From: Coptis chinensis
Lineage: Eukaryota > Streptophyta > Magnoliopsida > Ranunculales > Ranunculaceae
Direction: 5' to 3'
Length of the DNA: 64,000 nucleotides
Assembly (NCBI GenBank): GCA_015680905.1
Contig: CM027380.1
Coordinates: 54,205,001-54,269,000, forward strand
A program made the position numbers and the translations under genes. How positions within the stretch are numbered: the stretch's first letter is position 1; each line of letters opens with the position of its first letter. Below, in pieces: positions 8,758 through 59,546 of the stretch. Under the pieces are notes generated by a model. The model was not told where the DNA came from and made no database searches. It saw only the letters and a program-made list of their open reading frames with translations.

Positions 8758-9225
8758 GTGGAACAGAGACCACAGGGCAAGGTGTATTATCTAGTGCCAG
8801 AGGAAGAAGTTGTGGATCCTGCATCAGTCCAAGAGGAAGCCACGGTATATAATGCTATGGGGGCAGATATCAGTGCTACCGATCAAGTGGTGGAAGGTAT
8901 GATATGTTTGTTTACTCATAAGGTGCATGTCTTGTTTGATACGGGTGCTACTCATTCCTTCATTTCTAACACTATGGTGGAAATTCTTGGGTTGGAAGTA
9001 GTTAATACCGGGAGGAACCTTATTTTATCTACTCCTCTAGGAAAGAAAACTATGTTCTTTGAAGTTTGTCACCATTGTGTGATAAAGATAGGTGATAGGG
9101 AGATGATAGTCGATCTAACGGTGATGGACCTAAAAGATTTCGATATCATCGTAGGGATGGATTTGTTAGGGAAGTATCATGCCCATGTAGATTGTTTTGC
9201 CAAAACAGTGACGCTTTTAGAGTAG
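8758..9225 (+). pseudogene. Gypsy fossil: protease region
   Basis: The frame contains the retroviral-type aspartic protease motif FDTGATHSFIS, followed by the IVGMDLLGKY segment typical of plant gypsy proteases. It is part of the element at 8758-15474. Confidence 0.85.
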
Positions 9226-9476
9226 GGACACCGAGGTTGTGTGTTTGAGGGGATTAGAAATACGGTATCTCGAAAGTGGTGAAGGCCAAGTCTGACTTCA
9301 AGTATGATAGATCTCGATTGTTAGCTGGTCTTAGTCTCAAGGGCGAAGTTGAATCTTCCGAGCTTGTTCCTATAGTTAGTGAGTTTGCTTGCGGTGTTCC
9401 CGGATGCATTGCCGGATTGCCTCCGGCGTGAGATAGATTTTGTAATAGATCTAATCGCCGAAACGCCTATATTTCG

Positions 9477-12284
9477 ATGATTCCTTATCGAATGGCTCCT
9501 CTTGAAATGAGAGAGCTCAAATCCCAATTAGATGAATTGAAAAGATTGGGGTTTATAAGGGAAAGCCAGTCACCTTGGGGAGCACCGGTGTTATTTGTGA
9601 AGAAGAAAGATGGGTCTTTTCGGCTATGTGTGGATTATCGGAAGCTGAATAATGTGACTATCAAGAACAAATATCCGTTGCCTAGGATCAATGACCTATT
9701 TGATCAGTTAAGGGGTGCCAAGTATTTCTCGAAGATAGATCTCAGAACAGGTTACCATCATATGAGAATTCGAGAAGAAGATATACAGAAGACAGTTTTC
9801 CAAACACGGCTAGGGCATTTTGAGTTTTTGGTGTTACCATTTGGATTGACCAATGCTCCAGTTGCATTTATGGATCTCATGCACCGAGTGATGTGGAAAT
9901 ACTTAGATCAATTTGTTATCGTATTCATAGATGACATCTTGATTTATTCCAAGACTAGGGCTGAACTTAAGGAACACTTGAGGATTGTTCTCCAAACCTT
10001 AGTTGATCATCAGCTTTATGCCAAGTTTAGCAAGTGTGAGTTCTGGTTGAATGAGATGAAGTTTTTAGGGCATGTTGTATCGGAGAATGGAATAACAGTT
10101 GATCGTTCAAAGATAGAGGCAGTGAATAATTGGCCGAGACCGACGTCAGCGACGGAAATCAGAAGCTTCTTGGGATTGGCAGGTTATTATCGTCATTTTG
10201 TAGAAGGATTCTCTAGCATAGCGTCGTCCTTAACTAGATTGACACAGAAGGATGTGAAGTTTGAATGGACTGAGGCATGCGAAAAAGCTTTCCAAGAGCT
10301 AAAGACGCGATTGGTAACAGCGCCAGTTTTGACTATTCCAGATCCGGAGAAGAGTTATGTGATTTATACTGATGCCTCTAACACCGGGTTAGGATGTGTC
10401 CTAATGCAAGAAGGCCAAGTGATAGCGTATGCGTCTAGACAATTGAATGCCCATGAGAAGACTTATCCTACTCATGACTTGGAGTTAGCGGCGATTATTC
10501 ATGCTTTAAATATATGGAGGCATTACGTGTATGGTGAGAAGTTTGAAATATTCTCTGATCACAAGAGTCTCAAGTACTTGTTCTCGCAGAAAGATTTGAA
10601 TATGAGGCAGAGGAGATGGGTTGAGTACATGGAAGACTATACATTCTCATTGCAATACCATCCGGGTAAAGCAAATGTAGTTACCGATGCATTGAGTAGG
10701 AAGCGAGAACATGTTTGTGCTCAGATGATGATGAAGGAGTGGCAATTGCTGGAGTCTGCTGCTTCTTATGGTTTTGAAATCACGGGAAATGGAAGTGGAG
10801 ATCCTCAGAAGTGCTGTTATTTAGCACAGATGACAGTGACGGCAGAAAACACCTTAGTCCAGGAGATTGTGAATGCCCAGAATACATCGAGGGATGGACC
10901 TAGGTACCGAGGATATGTGAATAATGCTGAGGATGTTGATTGGGAAAAATCCGGAGACGGAAGCATCAGATTCAGAGGAAGAATTTGGGTACCTTTTGAT
11001 CACTCTTTGCGGAATAGTATCTTGAAGGAGGCACATAGATCGAAGTATACCATTCATCCTGGTGGTACCAAAATGTACAGAGATCTACGTCATCAGTTTT
11101 GGTGGCCGGGCATGAAGCGACACATTGCGGAATATGTTAAGAAGTGTGCCACATGCCAACAGGTGAAAGCTGAACACCATAGACCACCTGGTCTTCTTAA
11201 ACCTCTGGAGATTCCGGAATGGAAGTGGGAGAATATAACCATGGATTTTGTATCCGGGTTACCGAGGACCAGTGAGGGAATGGATTCTATATGGGTCATT
11301 GTTGATAGACTGACCAAGTCTGCCCATTTCATACCTGTTAAGACTACTTACTCTGCTGAAAAGCTAAGTAGGATCTACGTGTCAGATGTACTGAGGTTGC
11401 ATGGGGCACCACTCTCGATAATTTCAGATAGAGGTACTCAATTTACCGGTTCGTTTTGGAGAAGTCTTCAAAGGGAATTGGGGACCAAACTGAAATTCAG
11501 CACCGCATTTCATCCGCAAACCGATGGGCAATCGGAAAGAGTCATCCAAATCATAGAGGATATGCTTCGGGCTTGCGTGCTTGATTTTGGGGGTAGTTGG
11601 AAGACTCATTTGGCATTGGCCGAGTTTGCTTACAACAACAGTTACCAATCTAGTATTGGTATGGCACCGTTTGAAGCATTGTATGGCAGACCTTGCAGAA
11701 CACCTCTCTGTTGGACTGAAACCGGAGATAGTATTATGTTGGGGCCAGAGATGGTTAGTGACACCACCGAGAAGATTAGAGTGATACGGAATCGGTTGCT
11801 CACAGCCCAGAGTCGTCAGAAAAGCTATGCGGATAGGCGTAGACGTCCCTTGGAATTTTATGAAGGTGACAGGGTATTCTTGAAAGTATCTCCGAAGAAG
11901 GGCATTCAGCGGTTCGGGATGAAAGGGAAACTTGCACCTAGATATGTGGGACCATTCCTGATTATTCAGAAGATCTCTGAGCTAGCTTATAAGCTCGAGC
12001 TACCAGAAAGGCTATCACGTGTCCATAACGTGTTCCATATCTCAATGCTGCGCAAGTATGAGCCGGATCCACTACATGTTGTCAATTTGGAATCGTTGGA
12101 GTTGGAAGAAGACATTACCTATCCGGAAGGGCCAGTTCATATTCTAGATGCGAGAGAAAAGAGATTGCGGTCAAAGGTCATTCCGTTGGTAAAGGTCTTG
12201 TGGAGAAATCACAATGTAGAGGAAGCAACATGGGAGAAAGAAGCCGATATGAGGCAACAATATCCAGAATTGTTCGAGGAATAA
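9477..12284 (+). pseudogene. Gypsy fossil: reverse transcriptase, RNase H, integrase and chromodomain region
   Basis: A 935-codon frame. In order it shows the reverse transcriptase with the FIDDILIYS active-site segment (about residues 145-155), RNase H with YTDAS (about residue 297), the integrase zinc-binding and catalytic region including [12 protein letters not shown] (about residue 610) and [11 protein letters not shown], and a C-terminal chromodomain-like segment ([12 protein letters not shown]). All are family hallmarks of chromoviruses. It is part of a broken element. Confidence 0.93.
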
Positions 12285-32373: not shown

Positions 32374-33348
32374 TTAAAAATAATTTTTTGCCGTTTCCAT
32401 AAGAAAAGTTTCACTCTTCTTTGGAATTTTGAGCTTCCATATTCCCATCAAATCCTTATTTTGTGGATTAGTTGAGCATTGACCTTCCGACATGTTTAGA
32501 GAGCAAATAAAATCATAGGCAGACTTTCTTTGTAAAATTTCCATTTGGGCCGGATTCCACAACAGCTTATCATAAGAAGATGGACGAGCTTGCACACTCT
32601 TGATAGAATTAAGAACCATAGGAAGAATCAGAGAAGAGAGGCGCACACAATCCCAAGAGCCGTCAGGATTTATAAAATCATCCACTGTAAGTTCCAGGTC
32701 CACACATGGTGGAAGAGGGGTGACAAGATCCAGAAGAGCCCATGGCTTGTTCATCACCATCACCCATTGGTCAGTCCAAAATTTCACCGATGCACCATCC
32801 CTAATCCTCCAAAGTGCTCCCAATTCCACAAAAAACTTAACTTTTTTCAAACCTTGGCAAATAGGAGAAGCATCAGAAGTATCTGTAGTGAAATTATGTA
32901 GGGTAAGAGTTTTGGTATACTTAGACCTCATGAGTTCACTCCAAAGTGACTTTTCTATCATAGCTCTCCAGAAAAGTTTGCAAAGGAGTGCCAAGTTAAA
33001 AGAATGAGCATCCCTGAAACCCAAACCCCCTTCTGCTTTCGTTTTGCACAAGCTACTCCATTTACAGAGGTGAATGGCATTACTATCCGGGCTATTCCAC
33101 CAGAAATCCCGACATGCCTTGTCCATTTTATCAGTGATGGAGATGGGAATATGGAATGCAGACATAGTATAAACTAGCTTTGCTTGAGTAACAGCTTTAA
33201 TGAGAGTTGTCCGGCCTGCCTGGGAAAGAAGTTTCCCCTGCCAATTCGCCACTGCACTTCTCACTCTATCTAGCAAAAAGCGAAAGTCCTGGACTTTAGA
33301 TTTTGAAAAGATGATAGGCGAGCCAAGATACATATCAGACCCAGTCAT
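32374..33348 (-). pseudogene. LINE reverse transcriptase C-terminal part and connection region
   Basis: It is in the same frame as the core: YLGSPIIFSKSKVQDFRF, WQGKLLSQAGRTTLIKAV, FWWNSPDSNAIHLCKW and GGLGFRDAHSFNLALL are the usual thumb/connection blocks of plant L1 elements. The end WKLKIPKK marks the start of the zinc-binding domain. Confidence 0.9.
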
Positions 33349-34461
33349 CTAAGCCACCTCCAAAGTGTGCTTCACCGACTCCTGTATATCATGACTTGTT
33401 CCCTGACTGAAAAGAATAGATGATTTGTCTCTATTTATCATTTGACCAGTAGCATCACAATAGAGTCTCAGAATCTTATCGATATTGTGAGCTTCATTCG
33501 GTAAAGTCTTCCCAAATATAATCAAATCATCCGCATATAGCATATGAGAGATACTAGGAGCCTTCCTTGAGATCTTGATGCCAGAAATGGCTTGTGCAGC
33601 TTGAGCTTGTAGAAGAAGTCTGGATAAAGCTTCAGAGAGTATGATGAAAAAGTATGGAGACAGGGGGTCCCCTTGCCGAAGTCCCCTCATCGGTGTAATA
33701 ATGGTCTTCAATGGGGAGCCATTCAGCAAAACATTATACTTCACGGTAGAGATACAAAACGAACCGGTATGAATAACTCTATCGGAGAAACCCGACTTAC
33801 TCATGATAGCAAGGAGAGAAACCCATTCAACTCTGTCGTAAGCCTTTGACATGTCCATCTTTAAAGCAAAAAGACCCAGTTTGTTCTTCGCCGCTTTTTT
33901 TATTTTATGGATGACTTCATGTACTACTCCAATGTTATCTCCAATTGCACAATTGGGTGCAAAGGCACCTTGGTTGGGAGAGATAAACTTAGGCAACAAC
34001 CCTCTTAATCTATTCGCAAGGAGTTTGGAGATAACCTTGTAGGAAACATTACATAGGCTGATGGGTCTATAATGTGAAGTGTAACAAGGGTTGTCTGTCT
34101 TGGGGATGAGAGAAATGAAAGTTTGATTAAGATATTTACCAAATTTTCTTTCAGTGAAAAAATTCTGGACCATCTTAACAAGGTCAGTACCCACAATCCT
34201 CCAAAATCTTTGATAAAACATGGCTGGAAAGCCATCAGGTCCCGGTGCTTTGTGACTCCCCATGGATTTAACAACTTTTTGAATCTCTGTAATAGAAGGA
34301 CATCTGATGATAGACATGTTTTCTATATCAGTTATACAAGGTTCAAAGAGATTGACGATTGTATTCAGAGAAGCAGGAAGAGTCGGGTTAGATGGTGGTC
34401 TGAAAATATCCTCAAAAGAAGTGAGGAATTGATGGCAATAGTTTGTCCGGAAGTAAGCCAT
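33349..34461 (-). pseudogene. LINE reverse transcriptase core
   Basis: The 370-codon open frame holds the LINE reverse transcriptase blocks in order: HKAPGPDGFPAMFYQRFW, FISLIPKTD, RPISLCNVSYKVISKLLANR, SPNQGAF, KMDMSKAYDRVEW, GLRQGDPLSPYFF and the catalytic MLYADDLIIF. It ends at an in-frame TAG directly continuous with the next frame downstream (32374-33348), so a single stop separates the core from the thumb and C-terminal part. Confidence 0.95.
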
Positions 34462-34511
34462 GTGCCATCCTTTTCTCGAATTTTATCAATATCATTCCTT
34501 CTCTGCGAAAG

Positions 34512-35605
34512 CTAGCAAAGGAGTGAAAAACTTTGTATTGTTGTCCGTGATCCGGCCACGGTTTGAATGAGAGATGTGTTTCGATATAACTGCTCTTTTC
34601 GATATAGGTCCATAATATTTTTTCTCATTTCCTTGATCTCCGGAAGATTGACATCCGTAACGAGGTTAGAGATAAGTGAAGTTAACCGTTTCGATTCTTT
34701 AACGGGTAAAATGTTCCCAAACACTTCCCTATTCCATGTCCGAAGAGAGGTTCTGAGAAACTTGAACTTAGAATTCAGAATGAAAGATGGCGACCCCAAA
34801 GATAGGTGACTCCAACAGTTTTCGATCACGCCTTCACATGAAACATCTTTGCACCACATGTCATGGAATCTGAAAGGCTTTGGGCCACTATCAACCACAC
34901 CAGTCATATGAAGAACCAGAACAACATGATCAGACGAAGAAGTTGCAATATGTGAAACACATGCCATAGGGAAAATATCTAGCCATTCCACATTCGCAAT
35001 TGCTCGATCCAGTCTTTCTCTAATATTGGCTTCACCCATTCTATGATTCGACCAAGTAAAAGATGGTCCAGAGAACCCAAGATCAGTCATATCAAGATCA
35101 TTAATAAGGCTAACAAAATCATCCAAATGTCTAAGGGGTATAGTATTCCCCCCTTCCTTCTCAGCAGAGCACACCACAGCATTGAAATCACCCATAATGA
35201 GCCACGGGCCAGAAAAAACCCTTTTGTAAGCTCTGAGATAATCCCATACAGCACGCCTTTTGTGGGCTATCGGTTCCCCATATATGAAAGAAACATGCCA
35301 AGATACATTAGTTAGGTAATTGATAAAAGTGCCAGATATTGCATGTTTACAGCCATCAATCACTTGAAAGGATATGTTATCCTTATAGAGCTTCGCAATA
35401 CCACCACTCGCGCCTACCGGATCTACCGAAAAAACTTGAGGATATTTAAGCGATTTTTTACATACATAAGTTTATTATACATAAGTTTAGTTTCTACAAG
35501 AAATAAAACATCGGGATTAAACTGCTTCACAAGGCTCCTAAGGTTCAGAACTGTTTCCTTAGAGCCCATCCCCCGACAGTTCCAGGATATCATCATTGCA
35601 CCAAA
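34512..35605 (-). pseudogene. LINE endonuclease (APE-like) domain
   Basis: The minus frame begins MISWNCRGMGSKETVLNLR near 35598 and continues with VLFLVETK (catalytic Glu), then in another frame WLIMGDFNAV (Asp, Asn), FTWSNHR and SSDHVVLVL (Asp, His). These are the sequential motifs of plant L1 endonucleases, which nick target DNA for target-primed reverse transcription. A frame break separates the first 80 or so residues from the rest. Confidence 0.88.
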
Positions 35606-41648: not shown

Positions 41649-44600
41649 TATTTTTTCTAACAGTAGAAATTGCTGAAATTTGACATTTCGAATTACGCAT
41701 AAGGAAAGTGTAATGGACACAAAAACAATAATAAATATAATAACAACAACAAACCAGAAATAGTTAGAGAACAATAACAATCCACTGGTCAAACTTTTCC
41801 TCCATGATTGCATAATTGGATGTTGCTTTCTTCTAGAAACAAAAACATTCCCTTGAAATATTTATTTGATCAACCTTCTCTGGAAAAGGTGGGAATTGTG
41901 CACTGTAACTAGCACAATATAATTGATACCGTACACTAATTTTTTTATGATGAATGTTGGATGTGAACTGTTAAGCAACGTACCAAGCTGGCTGTTCAAG
42001 GTGTTGGCATGGTAGGCCTTTACAAAGCCAATCAACGTACCGGGCCGGGTATTGGATTTGCTTAAAGGTTGGAGTCATGGTCCTTTCTTTTCTTTTGGAA
42101 ATCGCATGTGGAGCTTATTACCTTTTGCGATCATGTGGGGCATTTGGCTAGAGCGAAACCATCGTCACTTTGATGGCATCTCTATTTCGTGTAAGACAAT
42201 TCTCTCGATAAAAGCTTTGTTATTTCGATGGTCTAAAGTCTTCAAAGAGTTTAGAGGATGCTTCTTTGAGTATTTTGTTGCTAGATGGGCCCGTCTTATG
42301 TTTTTAGACATGGGGTGACGGTGCATGTCAGGGGTTTTTTGTTTTTTTCTTCTTATGTTTTGTTTCATCGCTTGTAAATATTTATTTTTCGGTTGTTCTC
42401 TTGTAATGTAGGCCTTTTCAGCCTACTTTTCTTTTATTAATAGAATATCACTTTTACCAAGCAAAAAAAAAAAAAAAAAAAAAACTTACCATTTAAGTGT
42501 TAATGCATTTTTTGACATGTACCACGTGATGAGCTCAAAGGCATTATAGTCTGTAGGTAATGGAATTAGAACGATTGGTTATGTTAGTTCATATGAGGAA
42601 TATTCGATCCTATCTAAATCTAAAGTGGGTGAAGTCGGGTGCTCCACTTATACGACTATAATGCATATGGTTGTCAAATGAAGAGGTGATGACTGATGAT
42701 ATCTCAATCACTTAATGTAGTTGGCTTTAAGACCATACATTGGTGTAGTCAAATATCTGACACTAGAGTGATCAGACTGACTATACAGTGAGTTATCATA
42801 TTGAACGTACATTGGAAACTCATTGTTAACGACAATGTGCAAAATTCGCTTTACCAAATATTCCTTTGACTTGAGAAATTGTGACAAATCAATTTTTTTG
42901 AATCTTATGCTTTTAGACATTATACAATGATGTCATATACGACTTTATCCTAGAAGTTTTAAGTGACAAATGTATAGACAATTGATATCACGTATTTTGA
43001 ATCTTGCATTAGCTTTAATGGTGGCTACTAAAGGGTGATTTTTAGGCCATAGGGGTATTTTCGTAACTGTCCTTTAAGTTATGGAAAAACATAAAAAAAT
43101 CACAAGATTTTAGGGTTTTTGAGGCCGTAAACCCTTGCACTCCAACTAGGGTTAGTGAAGAAGAAGACGATTCATCTGATGAGGATGAGATAGAGATTAG
43201 AGAGGGAGGTGAGGTTGAAATTTGGGCAAGGATCTGTGGAACAATTCAAAAGATATCTTCTTGGAAAGGCAACTAGAGCTGTCCAAAACGCAACAAACCC
43301 TAGCCTCCAAATCGTTACTGTTCATGGATGCTCAAAACAGATCGCCCATGAAGGAAACTCTACATTAGAGTTAGATACTTCTCTTCCTATCCGCATCAAA
43401 CAAGATCAAGAAGGTATTCTGGAAGTGGTTTCGGGTCTACAAAAGGAAGGTAATCAAGAAGGTATTCTTCATAGCGCATCTATGGATTTGGATACTAGAA
43501 AGGATGGAAATCAGGTAGATTATATTCAGAATAAACTCATGGATGTCTTTGGAGTGGGCAACAATGAAGATACACCCAAGGGGTTTACAAACAACAAAAC
43601 TGAAGAAGAACTGATCCAAGAGGCAAAGGATTTGCTGGCGTCTGTTGGCTACAACCTTGAAGCTACACAAGTTCAAGTTCAAGATGAAAGTTTTACTACT
43701 CATGGAGACTCAAAACAGATTCTACGCTGTTCTGAAGGTTATGAGAAGAAGAATTTAGAGGCAGCAGTGGCAGACGGGAAAGTTTCATCCTTTGCAAAGA
43801 TGCCAGCAGCCATGAAGACCACTGAAGAAGGCATGGAAGATTCAGGAAGCCATGATACGCTTATCAAACTACAACAAGATGTAGAGAAATACTACACAAG
43901 AGCTAGGGCACCGGAAGTGGAAGGTATCTCTTCCTCAAGAAATTCCGGAATAATAGGATCATTCAAAGAAACGCTAGCAGAAGGAAAAAGTCCCAACAGT
44001 AGGAAGGATGATGATCCTGAAACCAAGAAATCATCGGAAACGAGAAGAACATGGGATGAGATGATTGGTAAGAAGTCAGTTGGTGACGAGGAACTCACAT
44101 ATATTCCCCCTGCCACTGTTAACGGTAAGGCCGTAGTTCATGTCAACAGTTCCCAATTCTCAGAACTTAACAAAAAATTTCAGAACCTTATTGTAGGCTC
44201 TTTTGTTGGGAAAAGGCTTAACTTTAACTATGTAAAAGATATAGTAAGCCGTACATGGAAAACTAAGAATTTTGTTATGAAACCTTATGGAGAAACCATG
44301 TTCACGTTCAAGTTTCAGAATGAGGATGAGAGGAAGGCAGTCCTAGATACTGGATCATTTCACATAGCTAGTCAGCTGTTTGTAGTGAGACCGTGGAAGC
44401 TGTTTGTGGAAGCAGAAACCCGAGAACTTAAAACCATTCCAATCTGGGTTGTTGTTAAAGGGTTGCCAATGGAAATGTGGAATAAGTAAGGTTTCAGCCA
44501 AGTAGGGAGTGCTATCGGAGTACCAATGTTCAGTGATCGGTTAACAGAGAATATGTCAAGAACAGCCTATGCAAGAATGTGTGTAGAGATTGACACAAAG

Positions 44601-47600
44601 TGCCCGTACCCAGAACATATACCAGTAATCTTGGACCAAAGGAGAGTGTACAAAGTCTCCTTTGAATATAACTGGAAGCCTCCGAGGTGTGTATGCTGTG
44701 AAGTGTTTGGTCACACTGACCAAAGTTGTCTAAAGAAGGGTAAGGTGGAGAGTGACAGTGAGAACAAAGTCTGGATACAGAAAACCACAAATAAAAGCAC
44801 TGATATAGATGTCAAGCAAAAAGAAGTACAGCAGAGTAAGGGGAAGGTAACGGCAAATGAGATTTATGAAGTTCACAATATTGAGGTGGACTGTGCGCGA
44901 AAGGATACTGGAATGGCTATGAAGGAGGGGCGCACGCCCTTACATCAAGGCTTAATTATAGGCACGCGCCCACTCGAAGCCACTGAAGAAGAAGATAACA
45001 AAGCTGCAGAGATGAGTAATCCTCCGACTGACGAACCAGTTCAAGAGAAAGGCTATGATGGAGGTACGGGTAAAGACAGTGAAGGATGGCAGTCACCTAC
45101 ACAGAGACACATGGTGAGAGCGAGACCTGAACACAAGATTTCGAATGTGGAAGGCGCGCAAAAGAACAATCAGGAATGCACAAGTCGGGTACTAGAAGCA
45201 ACAAAAGAAAAATCGAAAGACAACGACACTATGAACATGACAGCACGAGAGGGTGAACTGGTGCAGAAAGACAAACAAGGGGAAGACTTTGAATATACAA
45301 AGTTGCATTCTAAAGGGCAACGGAGGAATAGTGTAGGAACTAAGCATAAACCAGGGAGATCCACAGATATTCAACCTTACACTAGAGCAGAAACTACTAG
45401 GAAAGGTACTACACAAGAAGGGGCTCGGTTTGGACCTTTATTATCTCTCAATCTTTCGTAATGATAAGGTTAGGGTGCTGGGATATTAGAGGACTTAATA
45501 AAGAAGTTCAGCACTATGAAGGTACAAAGTTAATTAGGAAGAATGAGATTAGTAGAATTGGCTTGGTGGAAACAAAGGTGAAGATAGAGCATAACTATGG
45601 CTATAATAAGAATGGAAGAATTGTGTGCTGCTGGAACTCAAAGAACTGCAGAATGACCTTCGTTCAGAATGATGATGCTAAGGAGGGAGTGAGAGGCATA
45701 AGGCAGCAAGTTCAGTGGCACAACTCAGTGTGGTTTCAAAATAGAATTTCCCGCCATTCCTGCTGGATGGCGATGAATGATGGTCATCAAACTGAAGAAA
45801 CTACAAGAATGGAAGTTAGGAGTAAATGATCGATGTGTGTTCTGTGGGAATGAAACGAGAACACCATTTTCATGCACGCAATGTTCCGAAGGCAGAATGG
45901 AGTACGCGTCAGCAGAGAATAGAGCTCTGGGTCTTTTGTGGCAAGACAAGATACACTGGATGGGCACTGATACAATGGGCAAAGGGAGTACACAAGATGG
46001 CCCACGACTGGTATGGAATGGATCCATGTACTGGGCAATGAATATCACAATGGCTCAAAGGCCCGAAGCAAAACAGTTCAGAGAACTTGGAAATTAGAGG
46101 ATCAGTTTAAGCAGAAGGAAATAAAGGTCAGTAAGTGGGAAAAGAGAGAAATGGGGGTTCAAAATCTAAACACTAATGGGACGTTACAAGGATCAGTGGG
46201 GGGATGGGCTGCAGCACTACGCAATGACGCAGGTAAGGTTATAGCAGCCAACAATGGCTCGTCAGTTGAACTGCGAGCAGTGGCACATGGTATGGGCATG
46301 GCATTGAGACATGGCAACAAGGAAATTATAGTACAAACTGATTCCTTGACAGTAGATGCACTCAACACAAAGAAGAGCAAGCATTCTTGGCAAGCAGAGA
46401 AGATAATAAGGAGTATTAAGCACAGGAAGGAAGCATTTCAGTCTTTTAATATTATTCATGTGTATAGGGAAACTTTTAAACTAGCCAAGGCTTTAGCTAG
46501 TAATATCCCTACTGCTAGTTATATAGAGTTAATCCCGAGCTCATTTTCTGAAGATGTAAAGAAAATCATTTATGATGTTGCTAGGGGTAAACTATATGCG
46601 AGAATGTAACAAGAATTTTATTTATTAATAAAAAGGGGTAGGGGATCTCTCTAAAAACCTCGCTTACCGACCAAAAAAAAAATATCACGTATTCCAACAA
46701 AGAATCCACCAACTTATAGAGTTGAACATTAGCCACACGATAATCAGCCACGAGACATTACCACAGATCCAACGTTTACACTGTAATGTTGATCCTTGAT
46801 CCATATCTGGTCTACATATCAGTTGTAATGCTGATCCATATCTAGTTTATATATCGAGGTTTTAAGTTTTAATCCCCGTTACTAATATGTTACTAATAGG
46901 TATGTAAGCTTTGGCCCGTTTCAATTAAATGTTGGGGTTCGGTCCATTGACCATGAGCAAAACGCATGATTGTAAGTTTACTTCCACTTCAAGGTTTCCC
47001 TTTTCTAAAAATTCATAGTACCCTTGCCTGTGCTACTCACATGACCCTCTTAAATTTATTTAAAAAATAAAACAAAGCAATGGACACGTGTTATCATCAA
47101 GGAAGTCCATATAACAACAATCCAAAATGTAAGATTTAATCTACATAAATAACATGACGTGGTTGTAAGTGGTATGTTTATTTTTGGCCTAAACCAACAC
47201 ATGTTTATTATTTAGTTTAAATATTATTCTTTGGATTGTTGTTATATGGACCTTCTTGATTATGAGATGTGTCTATTGTTTTCTTTTTCTTTTGTTTTGT
47301 TTTAATAATAAACTCAAGTGAGTCATGTGGGTTGCACATGCAAAGAAAATATAGCCTTTTGTAAAAAATTAATCTTGAACCGGAGGTCAACTGATGGTTA
47401 ATGCCTAACAATCAAGGGACTAAACCCTAATATTTTATTTAGAAAGGGCCAAAAGCCTAAATATGTATTAGTAACTGTTAGCAAAACCTAAAAACCTCTA
47501 AATTTGCTAGATGGTAATGGAGATTAGAGAAAGAGTGATAACTTATGAGTAAAGATAGACGGTTGGATACTTAAAGTTCCTCAAAGTCAGTTTAGAGAGG

Positions 47601-54451: not shown

Positions 54452-54595
54452 TTCGGTGAACTCTGTCGTATTCTTCATGCCGTATTCTGTCAGAGTTTTG
54501 AACTCTGTCAGAGTTCGGTGAACTAGCATATTCGGTGAACTCTGTCGTATTCTTCATGCCGTATTCTGTCAGAGTTCGGTGAACTCTGTCGTATA
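54452..54595. repeat. Spaced direct duplication beside the Mutator-like element
   Basis: A unit of about 46 bp (TTCGGTGAACTCTGTCGTAT, then TCTTCATGCCGTATTCTG and TCAGAGTT) occurs at about 54452 and again at 54531, with partial copies between and after. Confidence 0.8.
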
Positions 54596-54610
54596 TTGTA
54601 CAAACAAATG

Positions 54611-54918
54611 ACAAAATTACTGAGATATGCAATGTACTTTTCCACATCTAAACTTTAGTACATTGTACTTTTTTAGTGACAAGAACATGCAACTTACTTT
54701 TACAAATTGTATAATGACTACAACAAGTACTATTCCATCCAAAATTTTTCACCGGATTCAGGCGAAGTGTGACATGGCATACGATGTGGACTGCAACTAA
54801 TTGCAACGTGTGAAATAATAACTAATTAAAACAAAAACTCGTACACATCAGCTAATTAAAAACACGCAACTCTCTTTCCCTCTCTTTTTTCCTCACGTGA
54901 CCTATTTTCCCTCCCCCC
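54611..54918 (+). repeat. Left terminal inverted repeat of the MULE
   Basis: It pairs with 59242-59546 in inverse orientation with only scattered mismatches. It contains the palindromic G-box TCACGTGA near its inner end, a bZIP/bHLH-type site that could serve the promoter of the transposase (inference). Confidence 0.9.
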
Positions 54919-55152
54919 AAATTGTTTATCAAATTGTTTATCTCCAATTAGTTTACCCTAGTTTTTTTTCCCGCTAACCTATCAAAAATTTGAAAATTGA
55001 AGTGGAATTTAGTGTTAATTTGAAGATCTAACTGGAATTTGGTGTTTGCTTCGTGACTCAAGTATGTTTACAATTAAAATATCATTTTGTTTTTCTTGTC
55101 TTCTTTCAAAATTTAAAGTTGTTTATTGACATGTCTTGTTTAATTATTAACA

Positions 55153-57787
55153 ATGGTAGATGAAAACATTTCTTTTGAGGTGCATCATGGGGAGAGTTTA
55201 AGAATACGCCTTTATTACATTACAATGGGAAGTTTGATTATGTTTATGATGTGGATCGTGACAAAATATCTTACTTTGAAATAGTTGGTATTGTTAAGTC
55301 ATTTGGATATGAGAGTTTCAATAAATTGTATTACTGCTACCCTTGGAAGTCATTAAACTCGGGGCTTACATTACTTTCAAATGATGAAGCAAGACACTAA
55401 TAAAACGGTGACTGAACTGGAAAGATTGAGAAGAGGTTATACACAAATAGCAATTTATGTTGATTGGTGTGTTGAGGAAAATGCAGTTGACAGTGGTCAT
55501 GATAGTAGAGAAGGTAGATAAGGTGGTGATGATTCTTCTAGTGAATTGTCTGAGTCTGAAGATGATGATGTGTCTGAATGTGCTAGCTTGGACCATGTTA
55601 CTGATGAGGATGAAGAGTTGATTGAAGCTAAGACCCAAACACATAGGCATGATTCACGAGTTGATGATTTTATAGTAATAAATGATCCTAGGGTTGTAGA
55701 AGAAAGGATCCCAGTACCAAAGGGTCCTCCACTCAATCCTTTAAATATGTTTGTGGAAGTAGAGGGGGATAATAGTGATAATGAGAGTGAAATGCCCCGT
55801 CTGATGGGTATGACAGTCCTGAGGAGAGTAGTCAGGAAGAGGAAGAGGATTTTGTGGTTAGAAAGCCTAAGTTTCCCTTTTAACCCTAACACTGATACTT
55901 CTAAGGTTCAACCTATCCTTGGCATGAGGTTTGCAGATTGTCATCAGCTCAAGGATTTTCTGGTAGATTATGTTGTTGCTGGTGGATTCAATCTAAAATT
56001 TGAAAGGAATGCAAGTACCTATTTAGAAGCTATATGTGTGGAAGGATGCGAATGGATGTTATGGGCCACTTATATGCAAAATGAGAGAAGCTTCCAAATC
56101 AAGACTTAAAGGGCTGAGCGCCAATGTAATAGATCTTATGTGATTAAACTTGCAAATTCTAAATAGTTATGTAGGAAGTATATGAACAGGATATGATACT
56201 AGGAAATCCTTGTTGGAAAAACATTGACTTTAAAGAAGAGGTGATGAATACTTTCAAATTTTATGTTACTGAAGAGCAATGTAGAAGGACAAAATAGAGA
56301 GCATTTAATCAGGTTGAAAATTCTTTGGTTGCACACTATAATAAATTGAAGGATTATGCACACTTCTTAACAAGAGTCCTTGAAGCACAGTGGTAATTGA
56401 CACAGAAAGGCTAGGAGGTAGCAATGACCCAACACAACCATTATTTTTTAAAAGAATGTATGTGTGCTTGGATGCTTTGAAAAAGGGTTGGAAAGAATCA
56501 TGCAGGCCTGTCATTGGGTTAGATGGGGCTTTCTTGAAAGGTTTTTGCAAGGGTCAGTTGTTATCTACAATTGGGAGAGATGCAAACAACCATATGTACC
56601 CAATAGCCTGGGCTGTTATTACAGTGGAAGACACAAAGAATTGGGTGTGGTTCTTAGAGTTTTTAGTAAAAGACATTGGGATGAATAACACCACTGTCTT
56701 CACTATGATATCTGATATGCAAAAGGGATTGTTGGCAACAGTTTGTGATTTGTTTCCTAATTATGAGAAAAGGTATTGTGCTAGGCATATATATATGCAA
56801 ACTTTAGGAAGAAGTTTACTGGTACACAGCTGAAGAATCTGTTTTGGGAAGCTAGTAGAAGTTCTACTCTAGCTAGCACAGTTTGAAGAGGTGATGAATC
56901 AAGTTAAAGTTGTGTGTTCTGAAGCTGCTGAGGAAATGAATAGGCATCATCCAAGCTTATGGTGTAAGGCTTTCTTCTCTTTGGAAACCTGTTGTGATAA
57001 TGTGGAGAATAATATGTCTGAGGGCATCAATAGGACAATCAGATCAGCTAGAGCAAAGCCAATTTTTTTTTTTTTTTTTTTTTTGACTGGGAAAAAAAAA
57101 TAAAAACAATTATTTACATGTTATAGGAAATAAATAAGAAAGAAGTGCATTAAAAGAAACAACAAGAAAGTATATGAAATGAAGAAATGGAATGACATGA
57201 TTTGTCCTATAGTTAGACAGAAGCTAGAAAAGAATAGAGAATCACACAGATACTGGGAAGCAGAATACTGTGGTCAAGACAAGTATGAAGTCTCACATGG
57301 GAAATAACAATATGCAGTTTATTTGAAAGATGGTTTTTGTGCATGTAGGTAGTGGTCTTTAAGTGGGATACCATGTTGTCATGCAATTGCTGTAATGTTC
57401 TATGCCAAAGTGAACCCTGATGATTATGTTACACATTGGTTGAAGAAAGATATGAACATGAAAGCTTACTCATATTTCCTACAACCAATTAATGGAGATA
57501 AGGAGTGGCCTAAGACAAAGAATGAAAAGTTTTTAGTTCCCCCTAATAGAAGAATGCCTGGGAAGCCAAAGAAGAACTGAATACAAGAGGTGAATGAGGA
57601 ACCAAAGACAAGTACAACTGAAATTAGAAAGAGAGGAAGGGTGATGACATGTTTAATATGCAAGCAACTGAACTCTAAAGTAACTGAACTTGCTCCAGTC
57701 TCTCAAGTTGAACTTACTGAAGTCTCTCGCCTTAAACCTGGTGATCCAGCTAAAATACATGAGCCAGAAAGGAAGGCCTGGCATTAG
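55153..57787 (+). pseudogene. MURA-like transposase of the MULE, interrupted
   Basis: In family terms it cuts and reinserts the element at its TIRs. From ATG at 55153: an N-terminal domain (VHHGE, then shifted HYNGKFDYVYDVDRD), an acidic linker (frame 55546-56109), the Mutator DNA-binding block (MRFADCHQLKDFLVDYVV...GCEWMLWATYM), the MULE catalytic domain (frame 56390-56833: VIGLDGAFLKG with first Asp, FTMISDMQKGL with second Asp, CARHI) and a SWIM zinc finger (CAC...GIPCCHAIAVMFYAK, about 57337-57405). Several stops and frameshifts break it (around 55200, 55520, 56110-56390, 56834-56890). A poly-T tract with about 65 bp of unrelated sequence lies at 57062-57125. Confidence 0.9.
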
Positions 57788-58221
57788 TCAGTCACACTGG
57801 AACCGATTTTGGTCTTATTTTGTGGTACATTGTTCATTTTTGGCTTTATGTTGTGTGGTCAGACACATTGTGCATTGTTCATTTTTGGGGTATAGTGTGT
57901 CAGTTTGTGGCCACTTACATTGTTCATTTTTTGGTGTCTTCTGGTATGTAATCTTTAGGTCAGACATTGTAATCTTTACTTCATGATTAGACAATGGTTT
58001 AATGTATTGGTGGGAATGGTTCAATGTACTGGAATGAATTATGTTTGTCTTATATGAATTTATCTATGAATTATGAATGTATTAGAACAAGACAATTCAA
58101 TGAATTTGAATGAATGTAGTGGTGGGAATGGTTGCTCACATTGTAAATTGGTGTAAACCGGTTCCAAAACATATTACAGATTCCAACAATTAACCACTAA
58201 CCCAGTCTAACCCCAAGCAGC

Positions 58222-58229
58222 TATATAAA
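58222..58229 (+). promoter_or_regulatory. TATA box of the small MULE ORF
   Basis: TATATAAA lies 72 bp before the ATG at 58301, with a pyrimidine-rich leader between, as in compact plant promoters. Confidence 0.55.
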
Positions 58230-58300
58230 CACCCAAGATGTAGCTTATTTCTTCATACTTCAACAATTATCTTCTTCCATTACAATCCTCATTGATCACC

Positions 58301-58528
58301 ATGTCCTCAATCTTCAACAATACCGATGTCAAGGCCTTACTAAGGCATGGGAATAGCAATTTCAACAACTATGAGAAGCATATCCTCAAGCAGTATTTGG
58401 ACAACAAGGATGGAGAACATGTGATAATTGGAATGGCATTACACCATCTCAAGGAAACAAAAAAAGCATATAATAGCAAGGAAAATGCAGATAATAACAA
58501 AAGGGGAGGTTCTAAGACTAAAGAGTAG
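58301..58528 (+). CDS. Small 75-residue protein encoded within the MULE, unknown function
   Basis: An uninterrupted ORF from ATG (context ACCATGTCC) to TAG. The product is hydrophilic: it starts MSSIFNNTDVKALLRHGN, has a helical middle (EKHILKQYLDNKDGEHVIIG, then MALHHLKETKK) and a basic Lys/Asn-rich end. It has its own upstream TATA box and lies between the transposase end and the right TIR, on the transposase strand. It is more intact than the transposase. I recognise no family. It could be a Mutator accessory protein, a captured fragment or a chance ORF, though the promoter and start context favour a gene. Confidence 0.55.
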   Translation: MSSIFNNTDVKALLRHGNSNFNNYEKHILKQYLDNKDGEHVIIGMALHHLKETKKAYNSKENADNNKRGGSKTKE

Positions 58529-58762
58529 TAACACTATCTTGTTTAGGACTATGTTCTTGTCTTCTGTTTATTTTCTGCAAGCTGTGCTCTATGTTTTTTC
58601 TTCTTTTCTGCAAGTTGTGTCCTCTTGTGTTTTGTGTCAGTGTTTAATATAATATATAATCAATTAGACATTATCTAAAAAATGCATCAATCAAAACAAC
58701 TTCATTCATTCAGACAAACAACTTCATTCATTCATGAAGGACAATATCCAACTTCTACATAA

Positions 58763-59178
58763 CTACATAGAAACGTAACCAAGTCGATACATCAAGTAAC
58801 AAAAAATAAAAAACAAAAGCCATTTCTTTTGCTTTAGAACACTGTCTAACTTCATCTTCATAACTAACACCTTCTCTTCTTCTATTTTAAGCTTATTCTA
58901 CAACTTATCGTTGTCTTTAATAGCTTTTCAACCATTTGCACGAGTTGGGTGTTCTCCTCAACCAACTCATTTGAAGGTGGATCGATCCAACGGAAAAAAT
59001 GACAATAACAACTATTTCTATAATTAACACACCCAAAAAACCTTCTACCTTGATTTTTTTATGTTCCAGACACTACGATAGGTGTTAGAACACGACAACC
59101 ACCCAAAGGTTTCGCATTGATAGACAAAAGTTGTGAATTGTTTGAGTTTCGTGACATATTGACCGAGTTTGATGACAT
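58763..59178 (-). pseudogene. GRF-type zinc finger, coiled coil and membrane-segment gene inside the MULE
   Basis: Minus strand from ATG at 59178. The GRF zinc-finger core NQGRRFFGC, then SCYCHFFRWIDPP, is clear. A Cys lies earlier (PLGGCRVLTP). A coiled coil follows (NELVEENTQLVQMVEKL, then EEEKVLVMKMKLDSVLKQ), ending in a hydrophobic segment (WLLFFIFCYLMY). This is the layout of the small plant proteins often annotated as At4g04775-like. Defects: an in-frame TAA before NQGRR and a stop/frameshift near 58895-58910. Full length would be about 138 residues. It is convergent with the plus-strand genes and inside the right TIR, so it belongs to the element. Confidence 0.8.
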
Positions 59179-59241
59179 ATTTCTTTGGGGGTCGTTGTTT
59201 CACTCAAAAACGCTAACCCATAGGCGAGTTATCACGTGAGG

Positions 59242-59546
59242 AAAAAAGAGGGGGAAAATAGGTCACGTGAGGAAAAAAAGAGAGGGAAAAAAAGTTGCAT
59301 GCTTTTAATTAGCTGATGTGTATGAGTTTTTTGTTTTAATTGGTTATTATTTCACACGTTGCAATTAGTTGCAATCCACATCGTATGCCATGTCACCCTT
59401 CGCCTAAATCCGGTGAAAAACATTGGACATAATAGTACTCAGTGTACAAATTGTAAAAGTATGTTGCATGTTATTGTCACTAAAAAGGTACAATGTACTC
59501 AAGTTTAGATGTAGAAAAGTACATTGCATAATCCCGATAATTTTAC
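59242..59546 (-). repeat. Right terminal inverted repeat of the MULE
   Basis: It is the inverse of 54611-54918. The inner part has a short duplication, giving two TCACGTGAGGAAAA copies at about 59231 and 59262, where the left repeat has one. Confidence 0.9.

Follow-up and report, generated by a model that had tools for sequence, protein, structure and literature searches.

Several plant Mutator-like elements (MULEs) carry genes in addition to their transposase. In maize MuDR, long terminal inverted repeats (TIRs) enclose the transposase gene and a second gene in reversed orientation, whose product MURB is reported to be necessary for insertion (PMC9168764, PMC6446971). The Abermu MULEs of barley and other plants have, in type I, the transposase ORF1, a co-oriented ORF2 and a reversed ORFR, and in type II an ORFR between ORF1 and the 3′ TIR; ORFR is described there as evolving faster than the transposase (PMC9168764). 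In Hiun/VANDAL, a plant MULE as well, two accessory genes, VANB and VANC, accompany the transposase (PMC6446971). Here we analyse a 64,000-nucleotide stretch of the 936-Mb genome of Coptis chinensis (genome G000, contig 4, positions 54205001–54269000; hereafter the window), in which positions 54610–59546 hold a decayed MULE. From its sequence and that of its relatives, we consider it probable that a GRF zinc-finger gene is the resident second gene of this element and a likely accessory factor of its transposition.

Comparison of the window with itself returned two inverted arms of ~300 bp (54613–54911 and 59544–59252) that are 87.7% identical, which are long TIRs of the kind that mark a MULE. 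The span of the element (~54610–59546) was set by comparison with the ends of sibling copies, which read GACAAAATTAC. As an earlier note on this DNA had claimed, the TIR pair encloses a transposase on the plus strand, a 75-codon open reading frame (ORF) and a convergent GRF gene on the minus strand. The domains PF10551 and PF06839 both score above their cut-offs. The features of the element are as follows, in window coordinates:

54610–54911, plus strand: left TIR, 87.7% identical to the right arm
54894–54899, no strand assigned: CACGTG (G-box-like), close to the inner edge of the left TIR; right-side copies at 59233 and 59264
55153–57787, plus strand: pseudogene of a MURA-type transposase, split into ten frame segments and containing 7 in-frame stops
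56510–56797, plus strand: MULE (DDE) domain PF10551, 60.1 bits (cut-off 27.6)
57338–57382, plus strand: SWIM zinc-finger motif CxC...CxH with one internal stop, 30.5 bits by read-through (cut-off 19.6)
58221–58229, plus strand: TATA box (CTATATAAA), 80 bp upstream of the ATG of the small ORF
58301–58528, plus strand: small ORF of 75 codons; three predicted helices at low confidence (single-sequence fold, predicted local distance difference test 61)
58763–59178, minus strand: GRF zinc-finger pseudogene, its ATG lying 74 bp inward of the right TIR; convergent to transposase and small ORF
58766–58825, minus strand: hydrophobic C-terminal tail (predicted membrane segment), 17-residue Kyte-Doolittle maximum 1.6
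58987–59103, minus strand: GRF finger, with an internal TAA and the first cysteine changed to glycine
59252–59546, minus strand: right TIR, its innermost 27 nt the same in both arms

The transposase was read as ten hand-picked frame segments amounting to 859 codons. The MuDR DNA-binding domain PF03108 reaches 14.7–16.8 bits in the window (cut-off 25) and 32.5 bits in the related element L030. A run of ~22 T (57064–57085) splits the pseudogene right after a KPI motif and is followed by ~100 bp of unmatched sequence. Neither the one transposase query nor the two TIR patterns used had any match in collections of viral contigs and genome contigs.

Proteins resembling At4g04775 have a GRF finger near the N terminus, a coiled coil and a hydrophobic C-terminus; their genes are numerous in plants and are usually annotated as host genes. 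When the GRF gene of the window is read through, with X at stops and its two frames combined, the PF06839 score is 29.0 bits (cut-off 25.9), and the same reading matches the GRF of NEIL3 in the PDB (E 1.5e-5). A 45-residue stretch of it gave no candidate in the protein database. Between finger and hydrophobic tail lies a coiled-coil-like stretch, judged by eye. Damage to the gene comprises the TAA in the finger, a frameshift and a further stop later on; in addition, the first zinc-ligand pair (CxC) has lost its first cysteine. Because the C9 sibling has CGCG, the window gene is to be regarded as a decayed pseudogene of the GRF family. The window element is therefore a decayed Mutator-like transposon, with its transposase and GRF genes both broken.

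All genome-wide searches were made in the host genome, C. chinensis. A search with the left arm returned 31 matches, including the window's own two arms, and 20 stretches were fetched around the remaining TIR matches. Eight of the other matches extend as far as the inner TIR edge, namely the left-hand ends of the C9, C2 and C6 copies and the right-hand ends of the C9, C1, C2, C5 and C6 copies. In all five of these right-hand ends the GRF gene occupies the same position and has the same orientation. At E 1e-4, six of the 20 fetched stretches have GRF matches, three are left-hand ends, and the remaining 11, which surround short or diverged TIRs, match none of the three queries. The recurrence that the earlier note had proposed looking for, a GRF gene convergent at the same place in other copies, is thus seen at every full right-hand end and, as described below, in other MULE families. 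Some shorter TIR derivatives contain no gene. One of these, at C3:15280182, has a TIR 91% identical over the outer 200 bp. Short inverted TIR pairs spanning a few hundred bp were observed in L017 (G000:C3:15279900-15280800), L021 and L022, and are probably non-autonomous derivatives resembling miniature inverted-repeat transposable elements. The C3 copy L018 retains a fragment of the GRF gene and pieces of the TIRs but shows no match to the transposase, and has the appearance of a deletion derivative.

In the C9 copy the GRF frame is kept apart from a single stop close to its end, and both cysteines of the CxC pair are present; sibling and related copies score 32.7–39.3 bits against PF06839. 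The C9 and C2 copies are flanked by perfect 9-bp target-site duplications, each the best-matching pair in a search confined to 25 bp around the ends, where a 9-mer could match by chance but is unlikely to do so at the exact ends. The same search found no duplication for the C6 copy. In the A-rich flanks of the window copy the best match is 9/10 or 8/9, and no clean duplication is present. The ends of the C9 copy lie 37 kb apart and those of the C2 copy 27 kb apart, a spacing that is presumably explained by later insertions. Since perfect duplications surround the C9 and C2 units, the GRF gene lies inside a unit that has moved. The CACGTG motif is present in the right arms of C9 and C1, altered in C2 and absent from the GRF side of the divergent element L029. 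Directly outside the left TIR, window positions 54452–54576 hold a perfect 46-bp direct repeat (TTCGGTGAACTCTGTCG...) whose two copies start 79 bp apart.

A PF06839 profile search of the genome gave at least 149 rows above the cut-off (the best 150 of 608 first-look candidates were scored), and a search with the GRF read-through gave at least 106 matches. Three loci, L029, L030 and L031, were chosen and stand outside the random sample described below. L029, at 5 kb, and L030, at 6.6 kb, are both MULEs with TIRs and flanking perfect duplications (9 bp in L029, at least 9 bp in L030), and the convergent GRF gene is intact in each, scoring 33.4 bits in L029 and 39.3 bits in L030. For the random sample, the 149 rows were reduced to 132 loci and, after removal of two family copies and of L029–L031, to 127; 24 of these were drawn, and the first nine in drawn order were read, the last three with shorter stretches. 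At six of the nine (L033, L035, L037, L039, L040 and L041), a MULE transposase lies at the 3′ side of the GRF gene on the opposite strand. L035, L039 and L040 all belong to the L030 family, which reduces the six loci to four families. A convergent MULE within 5 kb is expected by chance at ~0.012 per locus, and six of nine gives p ~2e-10 with the loci taken as independent, a rough value because the density was estimated from 4347 PF10551 first-look candidates and copies of the same family are not independent.

At the remaining three sampled loci (L032 with L038, L034 and L036), a double GRF lies 203–229 bp downstream of a PIF/Harbinger-type transposase; L032 and L038 are one copy split by ~4 kb, L038 being the upstream part of the L032 locus. 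The chosen locus L031 (G000:C8:67172800-67181000) shows this arrangement at 424–2426: a transposase of PIF/Harbinger type (DDE_Tnp_4, 44.5 bits) is followed after 218 bp by a double-GRF ORF of 163 aa that runs in the same direction and totals 81.9 bits. This spacing of 203–229 bp and the shared strand are found in all four such loci. GRF genes without an adjoining transposase numbered none of the nine sampled, and this linkage would explain the abundance of GRF genes in this genome.

The motifs CxCG, (F/Y/I)GC and Cx(F/Y)FxW are present in six of six aligned GRF proteins. Four of the six have a hydrophobic tail, and the remaining two readings stop early, at 67 and 70 residues; besides the window gene, tails are found in the C9 sibling, L029, L030 and L037. 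A further ORF, to which no family could be assigned, is common to the L030 family and lies between transposase and GRF gene:

L030, 5274–5546, plus strand: shared ORF NHPRGVEVVCNRFRFEK...
L035, 2543–3025, minus strand: the same ORF
L039, 3191–3541, plus strand: the same ORF
L040, 1237–1695, minus strand: the same ORF

Comparisons between families indicate how the GRF gene has evolved. Intact GRF frames are 37–39% identical between families in the pairs compared. Between C9 and L029, the proportions of synonymous and nonsynonymous differences (pS and pN) are 0.61 and 0.36, giving a ratio of nonsynonymous to synonymous rates (dN/dS) of 0.40 (Fisher p 1e-4), and L029 and L030 give a dN/dS of 0.22, with dS near saturation. 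For the small ORF between families, pS is 0.79 and pN 0.22 (Fisher p 4e-8), and the DDE domain of window and L029 has a dN/dS of 0.39 (Fisher p 8e-5); all Fisher tests used approximate site counts. Purifying selection between families is thus clear, at the level of sequence comparison, for both the GRF gene and the small ORF. The GRF identity is 39% where the DDE domain keeps 64%, and GRF is, on these alignments, a protein gene preserved over long times while its sequence changes faster than the DDE domain.

We therefore hold it very likely that the convergent GRF gene is a resident second gene of the MULE. Two lines of evidence argue for residence: the gene lies inside TIR units with perfect 9-bp duplications in two sibling and two related elements, and the layout recurs in several diverged MULE families with the reading frame kept between them. 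Several observations weigh against residence with a function. Within the window family, maximum-likelihood (ML) estimates of omega are 0.74 for GRF (p 0.28), so that recent selection is not significant, and 1.2 for the small ORF (p 0.56), with 0.62 for the transposase C-terminus (p 0.08). The L030 family gives 0.84 for GRF, graded simply as not significant as the free fit lies slightly below the null, and 0.65 for its transposase (p 0.11). Of the 150 MULE domains with the highest scores, just one has a GRF locus within 15 kb (at least 188 loci entered), and most of these high-scoring MULE or FAR1-like genes have no known GRF partner; GRF accompanies a subset of MULEs. Finally, GRF and transposase distances across six families are uncorrelated (Mantel r -0.04, p 0.58), which leaves a single ancestral acquisition of GRF unsupported; the pattern may reflect one gain or several.

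Pairwise NG86 ratios within the window family are 0.28–0.76 for GRF (all below 1 in 10/10 pairs of five copies), 0.39–1.00 for the small ORF (10 pairs) and 0.33–1.17 for three transposase stretches. We did not count these ratios as purifying selection within the family, as the ML test is not significant; the GRF copies of C6 and C3, which have many indels, were left out of the within-family tests. The purifying selection on GRF that the earlier note had proposed looking for is accordingly present between families (dN/dS 0.22–0.40), and within the family it does not reach significance.

The main null explanation is that GRF is a host gene captured as a passenger in the manner of a Pack-MULE, with no role in transposition. 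Capture of host genes by MULEs is documented (PMC9168764, PMC6446971), and the within-family omega, not significantly below 1, also speaks for a passenger. Against this stand the same place and strand in several diverged families, a frame intact at 37–39% identity with the low dN/dS of the two pairs compared, and the fact that every sampled GRF locus adjoins a transposase. The window element has a transposase of its own, whereas Pack-MULEs are defined as transposase-free and holding host gene fragments only. We regard the passenger explanation as unlikely. The main functional rival, which we also judge improbable, is that the GRF protein counteracts silencing and thereby keeps the TIR promoters active, in a role comparable to that of VANC in Arabidopsis Hiun. 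A plant MULE accessory protein with such a role exists (PMC6446971), and a zinc finger could read the DNA of the element, but a protein with a membrane tail would be an odd fit for work on chromatin.

The idea that GRF moves as a unit of its own and entered the MULE at a later time could draw on the sheer number of GRF genes (at least 149 PF06839 rows, 608 candidates). Among the 25 longest of the 62 inverted pairs in the window, however, only the TIR arms of the element exceed 36 nt, the position is shared by five of five sibling right-hand ends, and the layout is repeated in other families; we consider later insertion ruled out for practical purposes. Chance resemblance, with an ORF and a low-scoring zinc finger arising by accident in the AT-rich remains of a transposon, would suit the broken GRF gene of the window and the unremarkable length of the small ORF, but is next to impossible given the 32.7–39.3 bits of siblings and relatives and the small-ORF homologue in L029.

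Returning to the GRF gene as resident, its role in re-insertion is a tentative proposal by analogy, which we think somewhat less likely than not. Each TIR may act as a promoter, so that transcription of the transposase would start from the left arm and that of the GRF gene from the right, an arrangement like that of MuDR; the CACGTG motifs near the inner edges of both window arms may contribute to such promoters. GRF fingers bind single-stranded or branched DNA, and the finger could bind such DNA exposed at the cut ends of the element. The coiled coil would allow the protein to dimerise, and the hydrophobic tail might tether it to a membrane, for example the nuclear envelope. The net effect would be to help re-insertion, comparable to the reported requirement for MURB when MuDR inserts.

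The small ORF, which the earlier note had described as having its own TATA box, proved to be more than a frame. Its length is reached by chance in 591 of 2000 shuffles and is not significant; a protein database search gave no candidate, and the sole match among solved structures was not significant (E 0.28). A chance frame was first favoured on the strength of the shuffles and of the missing protein match. It is ruled out by a homologue in L029 (63% over 52 aa, E 8e-23), which identifies the small ORF as a gene. In L029 the homologue sits between GRF gene and transposase and is preceded by a comparably spaced TATA-like box. Within the window family the ORF is matched in the C1, C2, C9 and C6 copies, and the C5 match begins within it; the TATA motif TATATAAAC is kept exactly in three of four siblings (C1, C2 and C9) and altered in C6. 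A homologue was sought in L030, L033, L035, L037, L039, L040, L041 and L018 and not found (best E 0.22). The small ORF is a third gene, seen only in the window family and L029.

Of the earlier suggestion that MULEs acquired GRF genes as accessory factors, the association stands, in all five sibling right-hand ends, in other families and in the transposase linkage of all nine sampled loci; the accessory function is one that we infer, and three of the nine loci go with PIF/Harbinger-type transposases. The wider proposal, to which we give slightly less than an even chance, is that the plant GRF family consists mainly of transposon accessory proteins, with a single-finger, membrane-tailed form serving many MULEs as convergent second gene (functionally a counterpart of mudrB) and a double-finger form as second gene in PIF/Harbinger elements, two superfamilies of DNA transposons having enlisted the same DNA-binding module. 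If so, many plant genes called GRF genes would have to be re-annotated as transposon rather than host genes. If MULEs and Harbinger elements use GRF helpers, a domain with known DNA-binding biochemistry would provide a handle on the function of the second gene.

Elsewhere in the window, 8857–12284 encodes a Ty3/gypsy-type polyprotein with aspartyl protease, reverse transcriptase, RNase H, an integrase zinc-binding domain and a weak chromodomain. Two further regions, 32374–35195 and 43482–46609, contain minus-strand matches of the long interspersed nuclear element type (RVT_1 with a weak endonuclease match) and, on the plus strand, ORFs of DUF4283 and of RNase H-like (RVT_3) type.

A convergent second gene is already known from MuDR and Abermu. 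The claim of the earlier note that such a gene is not known outside close relatives of MuDR is outdated, as Abermu MULEs are described as carrying an unrelated convergent ORFR (PMC9168764). The term GRF is absent from the main text of PMC9168764 and PMC6446971, and GRF fingers tied to MULE, Mutator or Harbinger elements were not found in the literature searched, most subscription journals lying outside its coverage. The link between GRF and MULEs may be described elsewhere.

Compared with these systems, the window element resembles MuDR in its long TIRs and in a convergent second gene beside the other TIR; it differs in that this gene encodes a GRF zinc finger, a coiled coil and a hydrophobic tail, and in having a third gene. 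Like At4g04775-like proteins, the window GRF has a PF06839 finger, a coiled-coil-like stretch and a hydrophobic C-terminus, whereas, unlike the usual annotation of such genes as host genes, all nine sampled GRF loci here adjoin a transposase. With Hiun/VANDAL the element shares two accessory genes beside the transposase, a likeness of gene content; we know of no domain shared between the Hiun/VANDAL accessory proteins and GRF. The three-gene layout of Abermu type I, two genes co-oriented and one reversed, is found in the window element and in L029, the comparison being one of layout. For Abermu ORFR and ORF2 no domain is named in the sections of PMC9168764 consulted, whereas the reversed counterpart in the window is GRF.

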